64,000 bases of DNA from Capsulimonas corticalis (GCF_003574315.2 NZ_AP025739.1:7130001-7194000); one strand, 5' to 3'; shown: positions 1-14,571, counted from the stretch's first letter. A program made the numbers and translations. The notes: generated by a model not told the origin, from the sequence alone.

Positions 1-1025
1 GTTTGTACGAAGAACTCATCATAGTCGGCAGCCGTCGATCCCAAGCCTGCGTCGATGGACAATGCGAAGCCCGGGCTTTCGAGCAGACGGCGGGTAGAAA
101 GGTTGTCGACTCCAGCAAGAAGGATACGGGGATCCGCATCGGCCAGAAGTAGCCGCCCGTCGAACCGGCGCTCCACAAGCCGCGTGGCGAAGCCGCGCGC
201 CTCGAGCCAGCGGGAAACGACTCTCGTTTTTAGGTGCCCGATATGCCTGTGGTACGTAAGAACGCTGGTGCTCGGGGTTGAAAGCGTCACATGGTCGTCG
301 TCTTGCAGGCACACCAGCGCCTTGCTGTCAGGATACGGCAACGCGGCCAGTGTCCAAGCGTAGGCTTGTCCAAGGTGCCCCAGGCCGAGCAGCCAAAGGC
401 CGCTCGGGAGATAATATGGCTCAAGCCCCTCTCCGTGCCGCCAGTCCGTTCCGGGCATGGCGAGTGAAAGCCCGAGGCTGCGACGTCCGGCCCACCGATC
501 CCGCCCCAGGAGATATGCGAAGCATTCCGATACTGCTAAGGCACCGGCCAAGACTGCCGCCAGCGGAAACATCGAATCCTCGGGCAGGCGGAACCCGTCT
601 TCCGCCGGGAGCACACCGCCTGACCAGCCGCCATAGGTCACCCGTATGGCCGGGACGTCAGCCCCCTGGGATGTGCAGTCGCCGAGCAAAACAAGCGGCG
701 CGTTGCTGAACGCCTCGCCAGCGATCTGGCCGCCCAGCCGCTGAATTGCCTGCCCAAGCGTTTGACCGCTACCGAGCCCCGTCACCAGTCTTTCATCCCC
801 GTCAACTCCCACGATTCGAACGCCGCCGGCACAGGCCCTGGCCCCTGCATTTGCCATGGTCAGGAGGCATACCTGCCCGGATTCCGTGCGTACGGCGTCC
901 TTCCCCACGACAATAGTGAAGGCGTATCGCCCGAGCATGGCGTATGCTGCGTCCACGGATTGGGCAAGCTGGAGATCGATAAGGATCTTGGCTGCTCTGT
1001 TTAGGTTTTCGCGATTGTGTTGCAT
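1..1025 (-). CDS. ThiF/E1-like adenylyltransferase (partial, runs off the left edge)
   Basis: About 341 codons are visible and no stop falls inside the window. The ATG at 1025 sits 4 bases after the JAB gene stop, so the gene closes the ubiquitin-like operon. Residues 1-205 form an alpha/beta region that I do not recognise. A Rossmann P-loop GLGHLGQ follows at 214-220, then an acidic strand end (QDDDH, 241-245), a lysine in GHLK (266) and AGVDN (304-308), which match the nucleotide-binding elements of ThiF/MoeB/E1 enzymes. Family knowledge: these adenylate the C-terminal glycine of a ubiquitin-like protein and pass it on. Any catalytic cysteine would lie beyond the edge. The long N-terminal region and the Ubl/E2/JAB neighbours argue for protein conjugation rather than thiamine or cofactor synthesis. 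The family call is firm; the substrate is inferred. Confidence 0.85.
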   Translation of the reverse strand, partial: MQHNRENLNRAAKILIDLQLAQSVDAAYAMLGRYAFTIVVGKDAVRTESGQVCLLTMANAGARACAGGVRIVGVDGDERLVTGLGSGQTLGQAIQRLGGQIAGEAFSNAPLVLLGDCTSQGADVPAIRVTYGGWSGGVLPAEDGFRLPEDSMFPLAAVLAGALAVSECFAYLLGRDRWAGRRSLGLSLAMPGTDWRHGEGLEPYYLPSGLWLLGLGHLGQAYAWTLAALPYPDSKALVCLQDDDHVTLSTPSTSVLTYHRHIGHLKTRVVSRWLEARGFATRLVERRFDGRLLLADADPRILLAGVDNLSTRRLLESPGFALSIDAGLGSTAADYDEFFVQ

Positions 1026-1029
1026 TCTT

Positions 1030-1491
1030 TCAGCTCCAACGGCCTACGTATAGCTTTTGAGCGGAAGGCCCAGGTTTGACCTCGCTCCACTGGTGGTTTC
1101 CCAAGAACGTGTAGTACGCGACGTCCGCTGGCTGCGGTCTCCCCTGCGCATAATTGGGGACGATGAAGGCCAGGTGGCCGCTGGAGGCCATCATGGGATT
1201 ATCACGGTCCAGCGGGCTTTGGAAGGGGGGACCGGGATGGGTATGGACATCCGCTACGACTTGCAGGCCGGATTCCTTCAGTATCTTCCAGAGCTTTCTG
1301 TAGCCCACTGAGGTGAAAATGATGTAGCCGGCCTCAAGGCACCCCGGCTCAAGGTCGTCGTAGAAGGCGAATCGGACTGCCTCCCTCCGCCCTTTTACGG
1401 TTTGCCCGAGGAGGAAGGCACCGCTTTCCCTGACACCGTCCCCACGGGCGGCAAGCTCAGAAACGAGATGGCTCCAGGCTGAGATGGGCAT
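1030..1491 (-). CDS. JAB/JAMM metallopeptidase (Prok-JAB family)
   Basis: The product is 153 residues if it starts at the ATG at 1491, nine bases after the E2-like gene stop. A longer frame upstream exists but overlaps the E2 gene and is not needed for the domain. The JAMM zinc site is visible: Glu22 in RESGAFLLG, then His83 and His85 in VHTHPG, Ser92 and Asp95 in QSPLDRD. Known role of the family: zinc isopeptidase that trims ubiquitin-like precursors or removes them from targets. Here it lies between an E2-like and an E1-like gene, so it is the likely deconjugase or processing enzyme of this operon. The His-to-Ser spacing looks one residue shorter than the usual pattern, which does not disturb the metal ligands. 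Confidence 0.85.
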   Translation of the reverse strand: MPISAWSHLVSELAARGDGVRESGAFLLGQTVKGRREAVRFAFYDDLEPGCLEAGYIIFTSVGYRKLWKILKESGLQVVADVHTHPGPPFQSPLDRDNPMMASSGHLAFIVPNYAQGRPQPADVAYYTFLGNHQWSEVKPGPSAQKLYVGRWS

Positions 1492-1498
1492 AGAGAGT

Positions 1499-2487
<989 letters not shown>

Positions 2488-2714
2488 TGTTTTGTCTCCT
2501 CTTGCTACCGCTATCTCGTATTGTAGTTCCGCAAGGCGGTCATAGTCGGCAAGAACAGCAAAGTGCCGGGACCGGCCGCTCTGCGTCCTCTAACTAATCC
2601 ACTACAAGGGAGCATGCAGTATGTGTAAGCAAGGGATAAATTATTTTTGTGGCTTGGAAACGCACCCGCCGATTGCGGGTGGGGAGGTCACGAAACATGA
2701 CCAGCATATGGAAC

Positions 2715-5700
2715 TCACGCAGCCTCGATCGTATCCTTTGGCCGCTGGGGGCAGATCAGCGAGAATCCGCAGAGCTGGCAGGCTTGGTCCGAGGCAGGGT
2801 TAGGCGCGAACACGCCGCTCCCGAGCCCAACGGCGGCGTTCTCGTACTTCTCGATCCGGCCCTTGTCGTGATGCGCCTGCGGCTTGAACCGCTTGGAGGA
2901 GCCGTCCGCCAGGAACCTGGCCTCCACGGATACCAGCCGGTCTGGATAGCTGTCTGACGCCGCTCGATACAGGATGGAGAGGCGGCGGTTCGCGCTCGGG
3001 TCTAGCTCTTGAGGCTTGCCGGTGAACAGCTTGGCGAGAACGAGCGCTCCGTCGCTGCTTCGGTTGAACGCTGCGTCAGGCTCGACGGAAACGCGGCAGT
3101 TTCCCAGCATGGCGATCGCGACGATGCCCTCTGCCGCCACTTCGTCGTCTTTAGCCCCGGATCGCGCCCGCTCGGCCATTTCCACGGCAGCCGTGAGGTA
3201 TTTCTGCTCGTTGACGTGCCCGACTGGACCGCTGGACACCCACGCTTCCCTCAGCATGGCCTCGGCCTGCACCGCGTCGGGGCGTCGCCCCGCTTTCCGC
3301 TCGGACTGAATCCATCCAAGCGCTTGGTATAGGCAAGACTGGAACTGCTGGTACCCCGCCCCAAGCCACGCCCCCCTTACACCGGCGACGCGCCTGTAGT
3401 AGTACTGTCGTGAGCATTTGAGATACGCGTCAAGATCGGACACCAAATACAGCGGGAGATCGCCTTGGCGCGCCGCCATGGCTGCAGCGGCAGGTTTGGC
3501 GGACTGCCCCGATGCCCAGGACAGTCGTTCCACCAGAGGATCGTTGAGGGCGTCGTTGATCAACTGCACCAAGGGAGACCGCAGCGCGGCCCTCCCTGCC
3601 ACGCCATACTGCCGCGCATGGGACAGCACGATGTGCTCGCGAGCACGCGACAGGGCCACGAAGAACAGACACGCCTCTTCGCCGACTGCTGCGTCGTTCC
3701 CGTCCCCCAGTCCGGGCGGCTCAGGAACGCCGTCGTGCGTTCCCTTAGATGGAAACCTGCCCGAAGCCAGGTTCGGCACGTAGACGATCGGGAACTCGAG
3801 CCCTTTCGCCGCATGCACGGTCATGATGCGCATGGCGTTCCAGGACTGCGCCTCGTCCGGCACCTCCCCCTTGAGGCCCTCGCCCGTTGCCACCATCCTC
3901 TGAAGGTGATTCAGGAAGTCTCGCGTCTTGGTTCGCGGCGGTTGGTTCCCGGCGCCGTTTCCTGCCTCCCCCTCCATATCGGCGCTTGGCCCTTCGGCGG
4001 CACCGTGGGTGACGGGCGCGACGATGCGTCGGTCGAAACTGGACGCAAGACGCAGCAACTGATGGATGGCCATAAGTTGCTGAGCGGACTGGAACTCGTC
4101 GTCTGCTCTGCCCCAGAAGTTGCGCAGGTAATCACTTTCCTCGAACAGGTACCTGCGGAGAAGCGTGGTGGGCTCTCCCAGCGCTGACGCGAGGGATCGC
4201 AAGTGCCGCTGCAAGGCGGTGACGCCGGGAAGCGCCGCCGGACTAAGCTGGTCCACGAGGCGGCTGTCCTCGGCGGCGGCGCGGAATCGCAGTCGATGCT
4301 TTTCCATATGGCTGGCAATCAGGAGGGCGTCGGAGGCGGGGATGGCATATTCGGGGATCGAGGCCACCCGTAAGATCTCGTACCCGTTGCCGCCGCTGCA
4401 CAGGGAGATGACGCTGAGCAGATCCTTTATCTCGGTGCGCTCGAAGAGGTCTCCCAGGTAGAGGGTCGGTATGCCTGCAGCGTTGAGGACGGAGACCAGC
4501 GCTTCTGCCTGATTGTGCGACCGGCAAAGGATGGTCTGGTCCCGAAACAGCCACCCCGCAGCGCAGAAGGACTGCGCCATGCGCACGATGCCGGTTGCTT
4601 CCGCCGCCGCGTCGTCTGCCGTCGCGATGGCAACCGCCGCATGTGAGCCAACAGGTGTCGTTCCCCGGTGTGCCTCCCAATCCGAGAAGCCGCCGTCTTC
4701 CTCCCCGCGTGCGCCCATCGCCCTCGCGGCGGTGCTGAAGAGGCGGACGATCGGCTCACGCGACCGGTAGTTCCGCTTCAGATCCTTTCGTCGGCCTGTC
4801 GCGTAGAGTGTCGTGAACAAGGAAACGTTTGCTGCCGATGCTCCCCGAAACCGGTAGATGCTCTGCAGATGGTCCCCGACAACCCACAGGCCTGTGGCCC
4901 CCTCCCCAGCCAGCAGGCGTAGGAGGCGGGTGCAGGCGCGGTTGACGTCCTGGTACTCGTCGGCCAGCACCTGGGGAAACTGGCGTTGCAGTTCCTGCAA
5001 GCACGCCGGGTGCTCCTCGAGAATCCGCACCGCAAGGTAAATCAGGTCGCCGAAGTCGACAAACCCGTTCCGGCGCAGCAGGCCCTCGTACACGGCATAG
5101 CAAGCGCTGACTTCCCCGGCGCGTATGGCTTGGTCCATCTGCTGCTCGACGGCTTCCCGTTCGGGCGCGGTGATCTTGTCCGTGCGAGCAGCCAGGGTGC
5201 GGGCGGCGGCCTCCGCCCCGGCGCGCATGTCCGCGCAGAGCTGTGCGTAGTGGTCGGTTGGGCACAGTTCGTCCTTGGCGCGCGAGATGGCCTTGAGAAT
5301 GCCGGGAAGCTTGAGGGCGGGGTTGTATAGGTTAGCCAAGGCGTCCAGAGGCAGCAGGGACAAGTTGTTTTCGAGAAGGGTGATGCAGTCCAGCCGGTCT
5401 AAGAGCTTGAAGTCGGTGGGCAGGCCGACACGGTCACCATACCGCCGCAGGACCTCCAGTCCAAAACCGTGGAAGGTGCCGACCCACGGCCCTGCGTCTC
5501 TCGTTCCCACGTCCGCAGCCGCGAGGCGTCCACGCATCTCCTCGGCCGCCTTGTTCGAAAAGGTGAGGGCCAGGATGCTCTCGGACGGGATACCTACCGA
5601 GTGCACAAGGTGAGCGCAGCGTCCTACGAGCGTCTTTGTCTTGCCAGTTCCTGGTCCCGCCCCAACTAGAACAGGGAACGCAGAGAACTCCGCAGCGTCT

Positions 5701-6302
5701 TTCTGTGAGGGGTCCAGGTCTGCGCTCACGGGCGGGGCCTCGACCGGCCCGTCCTGAGAAACTGGGAGCAGAACGGCGTTAGCGACCTGCGACAGGACAA
5801 CATGCCTGGACAGGCCAACCATCTCGGCAATCTGTGCGGCGCTCAGCCCCCCGTACCTGAACATCCTTCGGGCAAGCGAGCGTGGCAGCAGCAGTTCCGC
5901 CGCGAACACATTCGCCTCGGACTCACGTCGCTGTCGCGGCGAATAATCATCCACGCGGCGGAGACCAGCGGGAACGGCGTCGTGGTCTGCGTCAAGGTCG
6001 TCCGTCTGGCAGTGGCAGTCGCACTGGTGAAGCTCATTGTGCGCGTACTCATGCGCGGCATGCGAGGGCTGCACGTCAGCTGGCAAACTCTCGTCGATCC
6101 AGATCTCCGAGATCTCTCGGTCGAGCACGGCTTCGGCACCGTTCAGGAGTGCGTCCCCGTGCGGCCTCGGCGTTACCCGTATCTGCGTACGCTCGGCCAG
6201 AGCGGCCAGGATATCACCCGCCCTAATAGGCTCGTCGGACGGAAATCCGAGATCCCGACGCTTCGCAACGGCCTGCCGTCGAATGTTGTCTTCCCACGAC
6301 AT
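2715..6302 (-). CDS. ImmA/IrrE metallopeptidase - UvrD/PcrA (SF1A) helicase - Cys-cluster nuclease-like fusion
   Basis: The product has 1195 residues. The N-terminal domain carries the gluzincin site HEYAH (84-88) and ESEANVFAAELLLP (127-140), typical of ImmA/IrrE proteases, with an unusual run of cysteines (94, 96, 98) just after it. The UvrD part follows: Walker A GAGPGTGKT (214-222), TFSNKAAEEM, LADEYQDVN (motif II), VVGDHLQSIYRFRGA (motif III) and VALSRAREH (motif VI). The C-terminus has a split cysteine cluster (YLKCSRQYYY, then CQLCGFSLICP), as in AddB/Cas4-type Fe-S nucleases, but the expected D and E-x-K residues look replaced (KLFTGK preceded by LVLA), so the nuclease may be inactive. 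The start has GGGAGGGG ahead of it. It follows the putative regulator by 32 bases, and IrrE proteins usually cleave a partner regulator. Confidence 0.9.
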   Translation of the reverse strand: MSWEDNIRRQAVAKRRDLGFPSDEPIRAGDILAALAERTQIRVTPRPHGDALLNGAEAVLDREISEIWIDESLPADVQPSHAAHEYAHNELHQCDCHCQTDDLDADHDAVPAGLRRVDDYSPRQRRESEANVFAAELLLPRSLARRMFRYGGLSAAQIAEMVGLSRHVVLSQVANAVLLPVSQDGPVEAPPVSADLDPSQKDAAEFSAFPVLVGAGPGTGKTKTLVGRCAHLVHSVGIPSESILALTFSNKAAEEMRGRLAAADVGTRDAGPWVGTFHGFGLEVLRRYGDRVGLPTDFKLLDRLDCITLLENNLSLLPLDALANLYNPALKLPGILKAISRAKDELCPTDHYAQLCADMRAGAEAAARTLAARTDKITAPEREAVEQQMDQAIRAGEVSACYAVYEGLLRRNGFVDFGDLIYLAVRILEEHPACLQELQRQFPQVLADEYQDVNRACTRLLRLLAGEGATGLWVVGDHLQSIYRFRGASAANVSLFTTLYATGRRKDLKRNYRSREPIVRLFSTAARAMGARGEEDGGFSDWEAHRGTTPVGSHAAVAIATADDAAAEATGIVRMAQSFCAAGWLFRDQTILCRSHNQAEALVSVLNAAGIPTLYLGDLFERTEIKDLLSVISLCSGGNGYEILRVASIPEYAIPASDALLIASHMEKHRLRFRAAAEDSRLVDQLSPAALPGVTALQRHLRSLASALGEPTTLLRRYLFEESDYLRNFWGRADDEFQSAQQLMAIHQLLRLASSFDRRIVAPVTHGAAEGPSADMEGEAGNGAGNQPPRTKTRDFLNHLQRMVATGEGLKGEVPDEAQSWNAMRIMTVHAAKGLEFPIVYVPNLASGRFPSKGTHDGVPEPPGLGDGNDAAVGEEACLFFVALSRAREHIVLSHARQYGVAGRAALRSPLVQLINDALNDPLVERLSWASGQSAKPAAAAMAARQGDLPLYLVSDLDAYLKCSRQYYYRRVAGVRGAWLGAGYQQFQSCLYQALGWIQSERKAGRRPDAVQAEAMLREAWVSSGPVGHVNEQKYLTAAVEMAERARSGAKDDEVAAEGIVAIAMLGNCRVSVEPDAAFNRSSDGALVLAKLFTGKPQELDPSANRRLSILYRAASDSYPDRLVSVEARFLADGSSKRFKPQAHHDKGRIEKYENAAVGLGSGVFAPNPASDQACQLCGFSLICPQRPKDTIEAA

Positions 6303-6334: not shown

Positions 6335-7012
6335 TTAAACTTCCAACTGCTTGGTCCAGAACTCGCGATCCGCTTCGGTAAGCGACGAGGCGGTGCTGAG
6401 TGCGTCGGCAAACGATTCCTGCGCCGAGTCGGAGACGCGGGGCGCGGATCGTGCTTTGTAGGAGGCCTGGGCTGACAGGCGAGGATCAGAGCGTAGATAG
6501 GTGACGATGGCCTCAGAAGCGTAGTCGAGTTGCTCAGCTATCCTATCCACGAGGATGATGGGGATTGTGTTCAAGTCAATCCGACGTTGGTTCAGCTTCG
6601 CGAGCACGGTCGTGTCGATCCTGAGGGTTGCTGCCAGCTGTCTTGGCTGTATCCCGAGACTCCGCGCGCGGTCGAGTAGGTTAGTGAGCGGCGGAACGGC
6701 GTTTCGGGCAGCACGGATAGCAAGGGAGAAGCCAGGAAAAAAAACGGCCAACACCTGATCACCAACCGCGCCAATGCGTTCCTCCACTTCCGCGTCGCTG
6801 TCCGTCTCAGTATCTTCCGTCAGATGCCGACAAACCGCCAATTCCGTCAGGTCTTCAGCGTGGTCGGGATATCGTGCGAACCAGGCTTTCAACGTACGTT
6901 CGTCATCACCGTTCTTCTCCAAATCCTCCAGGAACGCATACGCTACGGCATCACCGTCAGAAGATCCGATGGGAATGCCTGCGGTACCGTCCGGCCTATC
7001 AAACTGCGGCAT
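6335..7012 (-). CDS. Putative helix-turn-helix partner protein of the IrrE-helicase
   Basis: The product has 225 residues. The start at 7012 has AGGAG eight bases upstream and lies inside the 3' end of the sigma-like gene (14-base overlap), so translation is probably coupled. Residues 1-75 are acidic (DLEKNGDDER, TEDTETDSDAEVEER). The middle segment (about 115-160) reads RARSLGIQPRQLAATLRI then DTTVLAKLNQRRIDL, which resembles an XRE-like helix-turn-helix followed by a linker. Family knowledge: ImmA/IrrE proteases commonly act on such adjacent regulators. The inference is that this is the cleavable repressor or sensor for the downstream helicase gene. No database family is recognised with certainty, and the DNA-binding helix is weak by eye. 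Confidence 0.6.
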   Translation of the reverse strand: MPQFDRPDGTAGIPIGSSDGDAVAYAFLEDLEKNGDDERTLKAWFARYPDHAEDLTELAVCRHLTEDTETDSDAEVEERIGAVGDQVLAVFFPGFSLAIRAARNAVPPLTNLLDRARSLGIQPRQLAATLRIDTTVLAKLNQRRIDLNTIPIILVDRIAEQLDYASEAIVTYLRSDPRLSAQASYKARSAPRVSDSAQESFADALSTASSLTEADREFWTKQLEV

Positions 7013-10482: not shown

Positions 10483-11133
10483 CTACGAGACCTTCGCCAA
10501 TACTGTCTCAAAATCCGCCGTCCGTTGCAACGGACTTGGGCGTTCCAACGGCCTGCCCATCATCGCGACGATATGCCGGTAGCTGTGGGAGCGCATCGCC
10601 CTGACGACCATCGCGCCGGCCACGTCCGTGACGCCCATCTTCGCGAGGAAGCACTCCTCGCCCCAATGCGGGCGCAGTTCCCCGATGATCTCAAGCGGCC
10701 AGCCCAGGCGCAGGTACAGCTTGTAGGTGCTCGGCGTGACTTCGAGCGAAATGTCGGCGATTGCGTGCGCCGCGCAGTACCGCCACATCTCAATACACAG
10801 CGGCCAGAGCAGCTGGGCCGTTCCCCGGTACTCGGGACGGACGGCCATGATCGAGATGTGCGCCCTCGCGCTTCTACTTGGGATCAGGACATCCGGCCAC
10901 ACCATCTCGCAGGGAAGGCTTTCGCAGGAGCTTCCCGGAACGAGCTGCAGTCCCCCGGCCAGGGATGCGCCGACATGCGCCGCGAAGTGGACGGAGGCCC
11001 GAGCGTAGTCCAGCAGTTGGGAGCCGGGCCGCCATGACTGCTCGTCGGCGATTTCGTGAAACATCCTTATGACGGCTGAAACGCCGTCGTCGTCCGCGAC
11101 CTCCCCAACGGTGTACTGCGCGTCATGTCCCAT
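10483..11133 (-). CDS. GNAT-type acyltransferase (autoinducer-synthase/N-acyl amino acid synthase-like)
   Basis: The product has 216 residues from the ATG at 11133, chosen because GGGGAGG lies seven bases upstream; a longer frame to 11175 lacks one. A core similar to LuxI-like and exosortase-associated GNAT enzymes is visible: ISIMAVRPEYRGTAQLLWPL (strand plus acetyl-CoA-binding helix) and the later YLRLGWPLEIIGE turn. Such enzymes transfer acyl groups to amines such as amino acids. The gene heads a minus-strand set with two membrane sensors, which raises the possibility of signal synthesis and sensing, but this is inference only. It diverges from the XRE regulator gene. Confidence 0.6.
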   Translation of the reverse strand: MGHDAQYTVGEVADDDGVSAVIRMFHEIADEQSWRPGSQLLDYARASVHFAAHVGASLAGGLQLVPGSSCESLPCEMVWPDVLIPSRSARAHISIMAVRPEYRGTAQLLWPLCIEMWRYCAAHAIADISLEVTPSTYKLYLRLGWPLEIIGELRPHWGEECFLAKMGVTDVAGAMVVRAMRSHSYRHIVAMMGRPLERPSPLQRTADFETVLAKVS

Positions 11134-11177
11134 CCTGTCGCCTCCCCGCCTCACGAATATCCGCGAGTATACCACAT

Positions 11178-11199: not shown

Positions 11200-11297
11200 C
11201 GGACTGTCGTTATTCTGGATAATGAGGAGGCAAGTAACGGAGTCAGGTGGTAGACATGCCTCGGGGTTTCCCACGGCTTCGGACAACAGACGGGGCG

Positions 11298-11570
11298 ATG
11301 AACCAGGTTGGCTCACGAGTGGAGGACCGGCGGATACGGCTTGGGCTTGCGCAAGACGAGCTCTGCGCAAAGCTCGCTCAGGTCACCGGCGGGGCCTGGG
11401 TCGCCGACCGCCGCGACATCTACCGCATCGAGAAGGCGCGTAGGACGGTGACCGACCTTGAGGTGCTTGCGCTGTCGCTGGCTCTGGGCTGCCCAGTGGT
11501 TTGGCTTTTGGTGGGCGAACCGCCCGAACCTGTCGTCTTTCAGAAAAGCGACGACAATGCCCGTGCGTGA
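11298..11570 (+). CDS. XRE-family transcriptional regulator
   Basis: The product has 90 residues from the ATG at 11298; the frame stays open to 11247 but the upstream residues look non-coding. The helix-turn-helix covers about residues 5-60: VGSRVEDRRIRLGLAQDELC, then WVADRRDIYRIEKARRTVTD and LEVLALSLALGC. This is the classic XRE layout, with the conserved DRRDIYRIE recognition-helix region of short phage/element regulators. A palindrome lies 100 bases upstream, between it and the divergent GNAT operon. Confidence 0.8.
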   Translation: MNQVGSRVEDRRIRLGLAQDELCAKLAQVTGGAWVADRRDIYRIEKARRTVTDLEVLALSLALGCPVVWLLVGEPPEPVVFQKSDDNARA

Positions 11571-12900: not shown

Positions 12901-14571
12901 ATGGTGACAACAACAGAGGAGGCCGTCATCTATTGCCGCGTCTCTTCAGCAAGGCAGATCCAGGAAGGAAGCGGCCTGGAGAGCCAGGAGCAGCGCTGCC
13001 GGTCGTACGCGGAGGCGCACGGCTACTCGGTAGTCGAGGTGTTCCGGGAGGAGGGGGTCTCCGGAGGCACCCTGCTTCGTCCGGCAATCCACCAGGCGCT
13101 TACGTTCCTGCAGAAGCGCTCCTCGCCCACCGTCCTGATCATCGACGACCTCAAGCGCCTCGCCCGGAGCGTCGAAACCCACATCGCGCTGAAGGCGGCG
13201 GTAGCGAAGTGCGGCAGCCGACTGGAGAGCCCGTCCTTCCGGTTCGAGGACAGCCCCGAGAGCAACTTCATGGAGACCGTACTGGCAGGCGCTGCGGAAC
13301 TGGAGCGCAACCAGAACCGCCAGCAGGTGCTCAATCGAATGAAGGCGCGCCTTGAGACGGGGCACTGGGCCTTCCGCTGCCCGCCGGGATACGTCATGGG
13401 CAGGACGGGCGCGCACCGGAAGGTAATGGTGCCGGACGGCGGGCGGGCAGAGCTGATCCGGGAAGCGCTGACGGGCTTCGCCTCGAACCGGTTCTTCTCG
13501 CTGATGGACGTGCAGCGGTTCCTGAGCGCGCACGGATTCTTCGGCTCGGGACGACGCGGAAGCGTGACGGTGGAACTCAACCGCGTGCGCACTATGATGA
13601 CCGAGATGCTGTACGCCGGGTGCCTTGAGTACAAGCCGTGGGGGATCCAACTTTGCAGGGGCGTGCACGAGCCGCTGATCAGCCTGGAGACGTTCCAGAA
13701 GATCCAGGACAAGCTCGCCGAGCGAAGGGCTCCGATCAAGCGGGCGAGCGATCACGACGAGTTTCCGCTCCGCCGCCTCATCTCGTGCGGCGTATGCGGT
13801 CACCCACTCACCGGGAGCGGCACAACGAACAAGGGACGCCGCTACCTCTATTATCATTGCTATCACAAAGGATGCGCCGAGTACGGCAAGACCACGGGCG
13901 CGGACGACCTTGAGCGGGAGTTCGAAGGGCTCCTCCGCAGGTATCACCTCAAACGTCCTGTCCTACAGGCGGCGCGGCAGATGGTTGTTGAGACGTGGGA
14001 AGAAGAGTACCGCGACATGGACAATCGAGCCGCAGCCCGGCAGATGGAGGCCGGCCGCATCCAGGGTCAGGTGCGTGAATTGACGCAGAAGCTTGTCATC
14101 CTCAGCAACGAGACGGCGATCCGCGCGGTTGAGGAAAGCATCGTGGAACTGGAGCGAAAGCGCCTTATTCTCACACAAAAACCGGCCGAGGCGACACGTG
14201 GGGACGTGGATGTTGGAAGCGCCTTCGACCGGGTTGTCTGCTTGCTGGAAGATCCCTACCAGACCTGGAAATCGGGGGATACCCACAACAAGCGACTGAT
14301 CACACAAATGCTGTTTGACAGCCCTCTGACGTACAGGCGAAAATCGGGTTTTGGAAGCGCTGAAATGTCGCTCCCATACCAGGTTTTAACCTCTTTGGAC
14401 ACACCTAAATATAGGTTGGTGGACCTTCCTGGAGTAAGTTGGAAGCTTTTCGCGGAAGCAATCCTCTCGTGGCTTCCTATGATCGACAACACTCAAGGTA
14501 CGGGCATACTGTACCGCACACCATCGCCCGGCGCGAGCCCGTTTGCGCGAAGGCAACGCACGTCCCCTTGA
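12901..14571 (+). CDS. Large serine recombinase (site-specific integrase)
   Basis: The product has 556 residues, with a three-part layout. The N-terminal resolvase domain begins AVIYCRVSSARQ, where the serine of CRVSS (about residue 16) is the nucleophile, with IIDDLKRLARS and the long E helix following. The recombinase domain carries PPGYVMGRTGAHRKVM and VRTMMTEMLYAGCLEYKPWG. A zinc-ribbon domain reads RRLISCGVCGHPLTG and later YYHCYHKGCAEYG, followed by a coiled-coil region (QMEAGRIQGQVRELTQKL). Family role: integration and excision of phages, ICEs or cassettes between short att sites. It is the strongest mobility gene in the left half and implies that neighbouring genes arrived on an element. 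No att core could be recognised. Confidence 0.95.
   Translation: MVTTTEEAVIYCRVSSARQIQEGSGLESQEQRCRSYAEAHGYSVVEVFREEGVSGGTLLRPAIHQALTFLQKRSSPTVLIIDDLKRLARSVETHIALKAAVAKCGSRLESPSFRFEDSPESNFMETVLAGAAELERNQNRQQVLNRMKARLETGHWAFRCPPGYVMGRTGAHRKVMVPDGGRAELIREALTGFASNRFFSLMDVQRFLSAHGFFGSGRRGSVTVELNRVRTMMTEMLYAGCLEYKPWGIQLCRGVHEPLISLETFQKIQDKLAERRAPIKRASDHDEFPLRRLISCGVCGHPLTGSGTTNKGRRYLYYHCYHKGCAEYGKTTGADDLEREFEGLLRRYHLKRPVLQAARQMVVETWEEEYRDMDNRAAARQMEAGRIQGQVRELTQKLVILSNETAIRAVEESIVELERKRLILTQKPAEATRGDVDVGSAFDRVVCLLEDPYQTWKSGDTHNKRLITQMLFDSPLTYRRKSGFGSAEMSLPYQVLTSLDTPKYRLVDLPGVSWKLFAEAILSWLPMIDNTQGTGILYRTPSPGASPFARRQRTSP

Follow-up and report, generated by a model that had tools for sequence, protein, structure and literature searches.

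What role a protease fused to a DNA helicase might play directly in front of a ubiquitin-like operon is the question raised by a locus of Capsulimonas corticalis. The window analysed here is a stretch of 64,000 nucleotides (GCF_003574315.2 NZ_AP025739.1:7130001-7194000) from a genome represented by a single contig of 7.6 Mb. Three genes form a cassette of conserved order: an extracytoplasmic function (ECF) sigma-like gene (P0003), a CapH-like helix-turn-helix (HTH) gene (P0002) and the protease-helicase gene (P0001). The four genes of an anti-phage BilABCD operon follow in order on the same strand, 228 bp after the cassette. In our interpretation, the cassette probably controls transcription of this immune operon, and we put the probability of this at about two in three. 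A sequence-only reading had drawn attention to P0001 and missed the sigma-like gene, the adjoining BilABCD operon and the family-wide occurrence of the architecture. Coordinates refer to the window, and all cassette and operon genes lie on its minus strand.

The protease-helicase family

P0001, the third cassette gene (2715..6302), was confirmed as an open frame of 1195 amino acids with an ATG start. It combines an M78 protease, a UvrD/AdnB-like helicase and a dead RecB-type nuclease tail with four cysteines. Pfam places Peptidase_M78 at residues 38-170 (5793..6191), with 36 bits against a cutoff of 22. The domain carries the zinc-binding and catalytic motif HEYAH (residues 84-88, 6039..6053) as well as E127 (5922-5924), the expected third zinc ligand, and the family alignment shows H84, E85, H88 and E127 to be invariant or nearly so. 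In a comparison of the family profile of this domain with solved structures, the best credible PDB match is CapP (7t5t, whole-sequence E 1.7e-5), with IrrE also matched (3dte, 7.2e-4); the nominal top match, 8vd6, was discounted as a short repeat match lacking credibility. The sequence-only reading had proposed that a CDCHC run following HEYAH might act as a metal-binding redox switch. The run is present (residues 94-98, 6009..6023) but unconserved, with cysteine at its five columns in 1, 0, 4, 0 and 24 of the 91 family members, and the switch was rejected on these counts. The run borders a poorly predicted loop at residues 96-119 of the AlphaFold2 model.

The helicase occupies residues 196-897 (3612..5717), with both UvrD halves recognised by Pfam (UvrD-helicase at 196-498, 4.8e-59; UvrD_C at 508-897, 4e-31), which bears out the earlier description of an IrrE protease fused to a UvrD helicase. 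All checked motifs are intact, including Walker A (5637-5657), and both Walker A and DExQD are essentially invariant among the 91 family members. The AlphaFold2 model of P0001, built from an alignment of 42 sequences, reaches a predicted local distance difference test score (pLDDT) of 85.5 and a predicted template modelling score of 0.88. Its helicase part aligns with UvrD, PcrA and Rep at Z up to 39, and the model aligns with AdnB at Z 31, with a root-mean-square deviation (rmsd) of 3.5 over 656 residues; motifs and fold alike are those of a UvrD-type superfamily 1 (SF1) helicase. No M78 structures were listed in this PDB fold search, where helicase matches fill the list, and their absence is not used as evidence.

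The tail (2748..3443) matches PDDEXK_1 at residues 954-1185 below threshold (19.6 bits against a cutoff of 22). None of the 91 family members has an intact nuclease D/E-x-K motif, which rules out an active nuclease and agrees with the degenerate tail seen in the sequence-only reading. The cluster of cysteines 963, 1175, 1178 and 1184, also recognised there, is kept in 90 of the 91; the remaining frame is truncated and has a gap at this place. RecB-type tails with a four-cysteine cluster are likewise found in AddB/AdnAB-type nucleases. The dead tail of P0001 probably plays a structural role, in line with the structural Fe-S domain suggested by the sequence-only reading, with Fe-S or zinc as the candidate ligand.

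The family set of 91 loci was assembled from a genome scan, searches within the phylum of P0001 and plasmid searches. Nearly all members are single open frames of a uniform length of about 1,130 amino acids, and they occur in Proteobacteria, Cyanobacteria, Chloroflexi, Planctomycetes, Verrucomicrobia, Acidobacteria, Myxococcota, Nitrospirota and Armatimonadota. The recurrence in many phyla and the uniform length exclude a chance or assembly fusion; the architecture is that of a widespread family, not a one-off. Conjugative and other plasmids are among its carriers. Searches of phage records with P0001 returned partial, generic helicase matches only, none of which covers 80% of the query.

Partner genes and loss of the protease glutamate

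Genes of the cassette usually overlap or lie a few bases apart, and this holds in many phyla; in the window, P0003 (6999..7781) and P0002 (6335..7012) overlap by 14 bases. Proteins of the P0002 family (about 190-225 amino acids) are encoded directly upstream of the protease-helicase in 84 of the 91 loci, and members of the P0003 family (about 240-285 amino acids) precede the P0002-type gene in 81.

P0002 consists of 225 amino acids, with a helical N-terminus, a lambda-repressor-type HTH at residues 108-175 and a conserved SYKA..P near the C-terminus, where P191 is invariant in 55 sequences. Pfam matched no family to it. In its AlphaFold2 model (pLDDT 85), the HTH aligns with the N-terminal domain of CapH (7t5u) at Z 7.5 and rmsd 1.7 over 61 residues. 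CapH-, SinR- and 434-type matches fall at Z of about 6-7.5 and rmsd of about 2; ImmR and DdrO align as well, and other lambda-type or unrelated HTHs tie at about equal scores. CapH, ImmR and DdrO are substrates cut by M78 proteases.

P0003, the first cassette gene, encodes a divergent ECF-sigma-like protein of 260 amino acids. Its family profile matches ECF sigma structures (6in7, 6.5e-5), Sigma70_r4_2 is matched by 34 of 47 family members, region 2 is weakly seen in the PDB matches, and the annotation of several members reads sigma factor or sigma-like. We propose P0003 as the putative driver of the downstream operon, and P0002 as a protease substrate that would act as sigma inhibitor or repressor. 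Its SYKA..P stretch, near residues 184-191, is a candidate for the cut site.

The fate of the protease motif bears on the second proposal. After deduplication, and counting only loci with enough upstream sequence, HExxH is intact in each of the 90 with the middle gene. The catalytic glutamate is lost in four loci, none of which has the middle gene or the sigma gene (Fisher p 3e-5 for the association of HExxH with the middle gene, not corrected for kinship). The sequence-only reading had named the product of 6335-7012 as the likely target of the protease. This linkage and co-loss, along with the CapH/ImmR/DdrO-like HTH, lend the idea indirect support, and P0002 may well be the substrate.

Several loci depart from the common arrangement. 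In L108 and L110, a middle protein of about 360 amino acids is encoded just upstream of the protease-helicase (L108:8847-12173 and L110:9926-13234), with no separate sigma gene detected; the enlarged protein is possibly a fusion or a replacement. Additional copies of the middle gene occur upstream of the protease-helicase in the Chthonomonadaceae-type loci L038, L054 and L159. The genome of the window holds a second family copy (L029:8648-12046, G000:C1:2009648-2013046), which has HAEAH in place of HExxH, lacks both the sigma and the HTH partner, and represents a natural inactive-protease variant.

Immune operons downstream of the cassette

The genes behind the cassette match the four PADLOC profiles of the Bil system: BilA, ubiquitin-like and resembling ISG15 (1999..2487, 3.8e-32); BilB, E2-like (1499..2002, 5.6e-47); BilC, a JAB/JAMM protease with an approximate start (1030..1668, open frame to 1857; 2.4e-58); and BilD, E1-like (3..1025, 2e-113), which is cut by the window edge and complete in the genome at 466 amino acids. 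BilABCD is an ISG15-like conjugation system (PMC11354881).

All four Bil genes are present in 19 of the 91 loci; multiubiquitin and/or E1 (ThiF) genes occur in 46, mostly together with DUF6527. As a rule, the Bil or multiubiquitin/ThiF genes lie just downstream of the cassette. The published zinc-finger pattern of Iyer class 6e was found in 0 of 42 DUF6527 sequences, although there is a CCCGC...C..H arrangement. Judged by PADLOC and Pfam, the genes downstream of loci without ubiquitin-like genes are mostly unrelated metabolic or signalling genes, with one cyclic-oligonucleotide-based antiphage signalling system (CBASS): in L106, a CD-NTase and a patatin-like phospholipase follow the cassette (L106:13356-16214). 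In plasmid Bil operons the same slot is taken by the present cassette, by a CapH/CapP-like pair of HTH and M78 proteins, or by another HTH protein. In a survey of 385 alphaproteobacterial genomes, four strong Bil loci were found apart from the centre genome, two of them with the helicase gene upstream, too few to give a rate. In two further Bil loci (L183:3538-5821 and L184:3509-5814), a divergent pair of HTH and ImmA/IrrE genes precedes a gene with an exonuclease domain, an arrangement that may represent another type of controller.

Such linkage to ubiquitin-like systems could also point to a second deconjugase in the Bil or multiubiquitin pathway, with the M78 domain processing the ubiquitin-like protein or removing it. 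We regard this as very improbable: BilC, with its JAB domain, already has that role in Bil, the family is also found without any ubiquitin-like gene, and loss of the catalytic glutamate accompanies loss of the HTH gene.

A promoter-like element behind the helicase gene

In each locus, the sequence before the sigma gene was compared with the sequence after the helicase gene, and a TTTCCG/TTCCGG element common to both regions emerged in 13-15 loci; the reverse-complement control gave 0. It is described by the two-block model TT(A/T)CCGGT-N14-nCGATT (also given as TTACCGGT-N14-nCGATT) and lies near the stop codon of the helicase gene, mostly within 30 bases 3' of it. The element is present in 38 of 46 multiubiquitin loci, 4 of 19 Bil loci and 2 of 26 others, with 0.0097 expected per searched window. 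A matrix trained on 17 loci, applied with the 99th percentile of random windows as threshold, recovered 21 of 29 held-out multiubiquitin loci and none on the reverse strand; the effective number of multiubiquitin loci is smaller, as many are close relatives. The CBASS locus L106 also exceeds the threshold. Before the sigma gene, the element recurs in the Bil-type loci L046, L053 and L057 (above threshold) and L011 and L052 (just below), which suggests autoregulation. The element is a conserved sequence in relatives, and the sigma-like protein of the cassette would be the factor that uses it.

Alternatively, P0001 itself might be the anti-phage effector, a GajB-like motor that attacks or senses phage DNA, with Bil as a mere neighbour in a defence island. 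Its helicase part does resemble defence helicases, GajB among them, and the family is carried on conjugative and other plasmids. The GajB matches, however, cover only the generic UvrD part, and none of the 91 members has an active nuclease. Tight coupling to sigma-like and HTH genes and the conserved 3' promoter element fit control, not attack, and the slot filled by the cassette is taken elsewhere by CapH/CapP-like pairs. We consider an effector role unlikely.

Points against control of the adjacent operon

Several observations weigh against a controller acting on the neighbouring operon, some of them specific to the window. The spacer from the helicase gene to bilA (2488..2714), where relatives have the element, gave no significant match in the search of the window's own locus, and only about 4 of 19 Bil loci have a clear copy of the element. 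A Pfam search of P0003 itself returned no match. Five loci retain HExxH without an adjacent middle gene, and the four loci that have lost the glutamate represent only about two independent lineages (L029/L030/L031 and L164), which makes the co-loss supportive, not decisive. In a Bil locus of a Cupriavidus plasmid (L180:3126-4546), sigma-like and HTH genes precede bilA without a protease-helicase. Finally, in a quick FastTree phylogeny of 96 proteins, P0001 groups with relatives from its own phylum, by inference Armatimonadota, that have no adjoining ubiquitin-like operon.

In the same tree, multiubiquitin loci cluster strongly, and about eight changes are required to account for the Bil label. 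Given the grouping of P0001 with relatives lacking ubiquitin-like genes, the Bil pairing of the window arose separately. This fits a controller exchanged among immune operons and equally allows chance adjacency in the window's genome. In the latter case, the cassette of this lineage could be a general regulator of other genes in response to DNA damage, to which BilABCD is adjacent incidentally. The closest relatives of P0001, several of which adjoin metabolic or signalling genes, are compatible with such a role, as is the unmatched promoter element in the window. Against it, the order, strand and spacing (228 bp) are as in the loci of Proteobacteria and Chloroflexi. A general regulator seems to us rather unlikely, and control of the adjacent immune operon remains the preferred interpretation.

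Proposed mechanism and known systems

From the domains, gene order, promoter-like element and partner operons, all read from the sequence, we infer the following chain of functional steps. The UvrD-like motor would engage DNA that is single-stranded or damaged, or else a phage intermediate, and this engagement would activate the fused M78 protease in cis. The activated protease would then cleave P0002, as the linkage and co-loss suggest, and the cleavage might free the ECF-sigma-like protein or relieve repression. Once free, the sigma factor could transcribe the Bil or multiubiquitin operon from the two-block promoter, and in some loci its own gene too. The dead nuclease and its four cysteines may be retained as a structural or DNA-binding part. 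As a class of controllers in which the motor is the sensor of invading or damaged DNA and the fused protease the output, with an HTH anti-sigma factor cut, sigma released and Bil, multiubiquitin or occasionally CBASS operons switched on, this more specific scheme has, in our estimate, an even chance of being correct.

CapH and CapP control CBASS, Bub and further immune operons. The present cassette resembles them in that the genes of an M78 protease and of its lambda-type HTH partner precede an immune operon, and CapHP-like pairs take the same position in other Bil operons. Unlike the two-gene combination of an HTH protein and a stand-alone M78 protease, however, the protease here forms one protein with a UvrD-type helicase and a dead nuclease, P0002 has an extra helical N-terminal domain, and the cassette adds an ECF-sigma-like gene and a sigma-type promoter element. 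Because of the helicase fusion and the sigma factor, we class it as similar to CapH/CapP in function and not as a member. IrrE/DdrO and ImmA/ImmR are alike in having an M78 domain with HExxH and a downstream glutamate, and in the HTH of DdrO and ImmR, which P0002 resembles; the IrrE and ImmA proteases are not known to come with a helicase or a dedicated sigma factor. The SF1 helicase core of P0001 is shared with AdnB, AddA, RecB and UvrD/PcrA, but its family differs from AdnB/AddA/RecB in the nuclease motif (intact in 0/91) and in the added M78 domain, and no place in a repair complex is known for it.

Other controllers respond to related signals. CapP is described as activated by single-stranded DNA and as cleaving CapH, CapW as responding to single-stranded DNA, CapW and CapK+CapS as responding to DNA damage through it, and CapK+CapS as adjoining five Bil operons (PMC13373217). 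CapW and CapK+CapS are encoded beside immune operons, as the cassette is, but use a WYL repressor or a kinase-STAS switch in place of a protease and sigma factor.

How bacterial ubiquitin-like immunity is silenced and switched on is largely open, and the presence of the cassette at many Bil and multiubiquitin operons makes the question directly testable. If the scheme is true, a helicase would be used to sense a signal while linked within one chain to a protease and a sigma switch, and the cassette with its promoter element could be a practical marker for undescribed immune operons downstream. No description of the fusion or the cassette was found in the literature searched, which did not include the main Bil, Bub and CapH/CapP papers, so an earlier mention is possible.

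Other genes in the window

About 5 kb from the cassette, the plus strand encodes a serine recombinase with Resolvase, Recombinase and zinc-ribbon domains (12901-14571), and this region of the window may be mobile. A FeeM-like N-acyl amino acid synthase or GNAT-type gene lies at 10483-11175, with a small HTH gene nearby (11247-11570).
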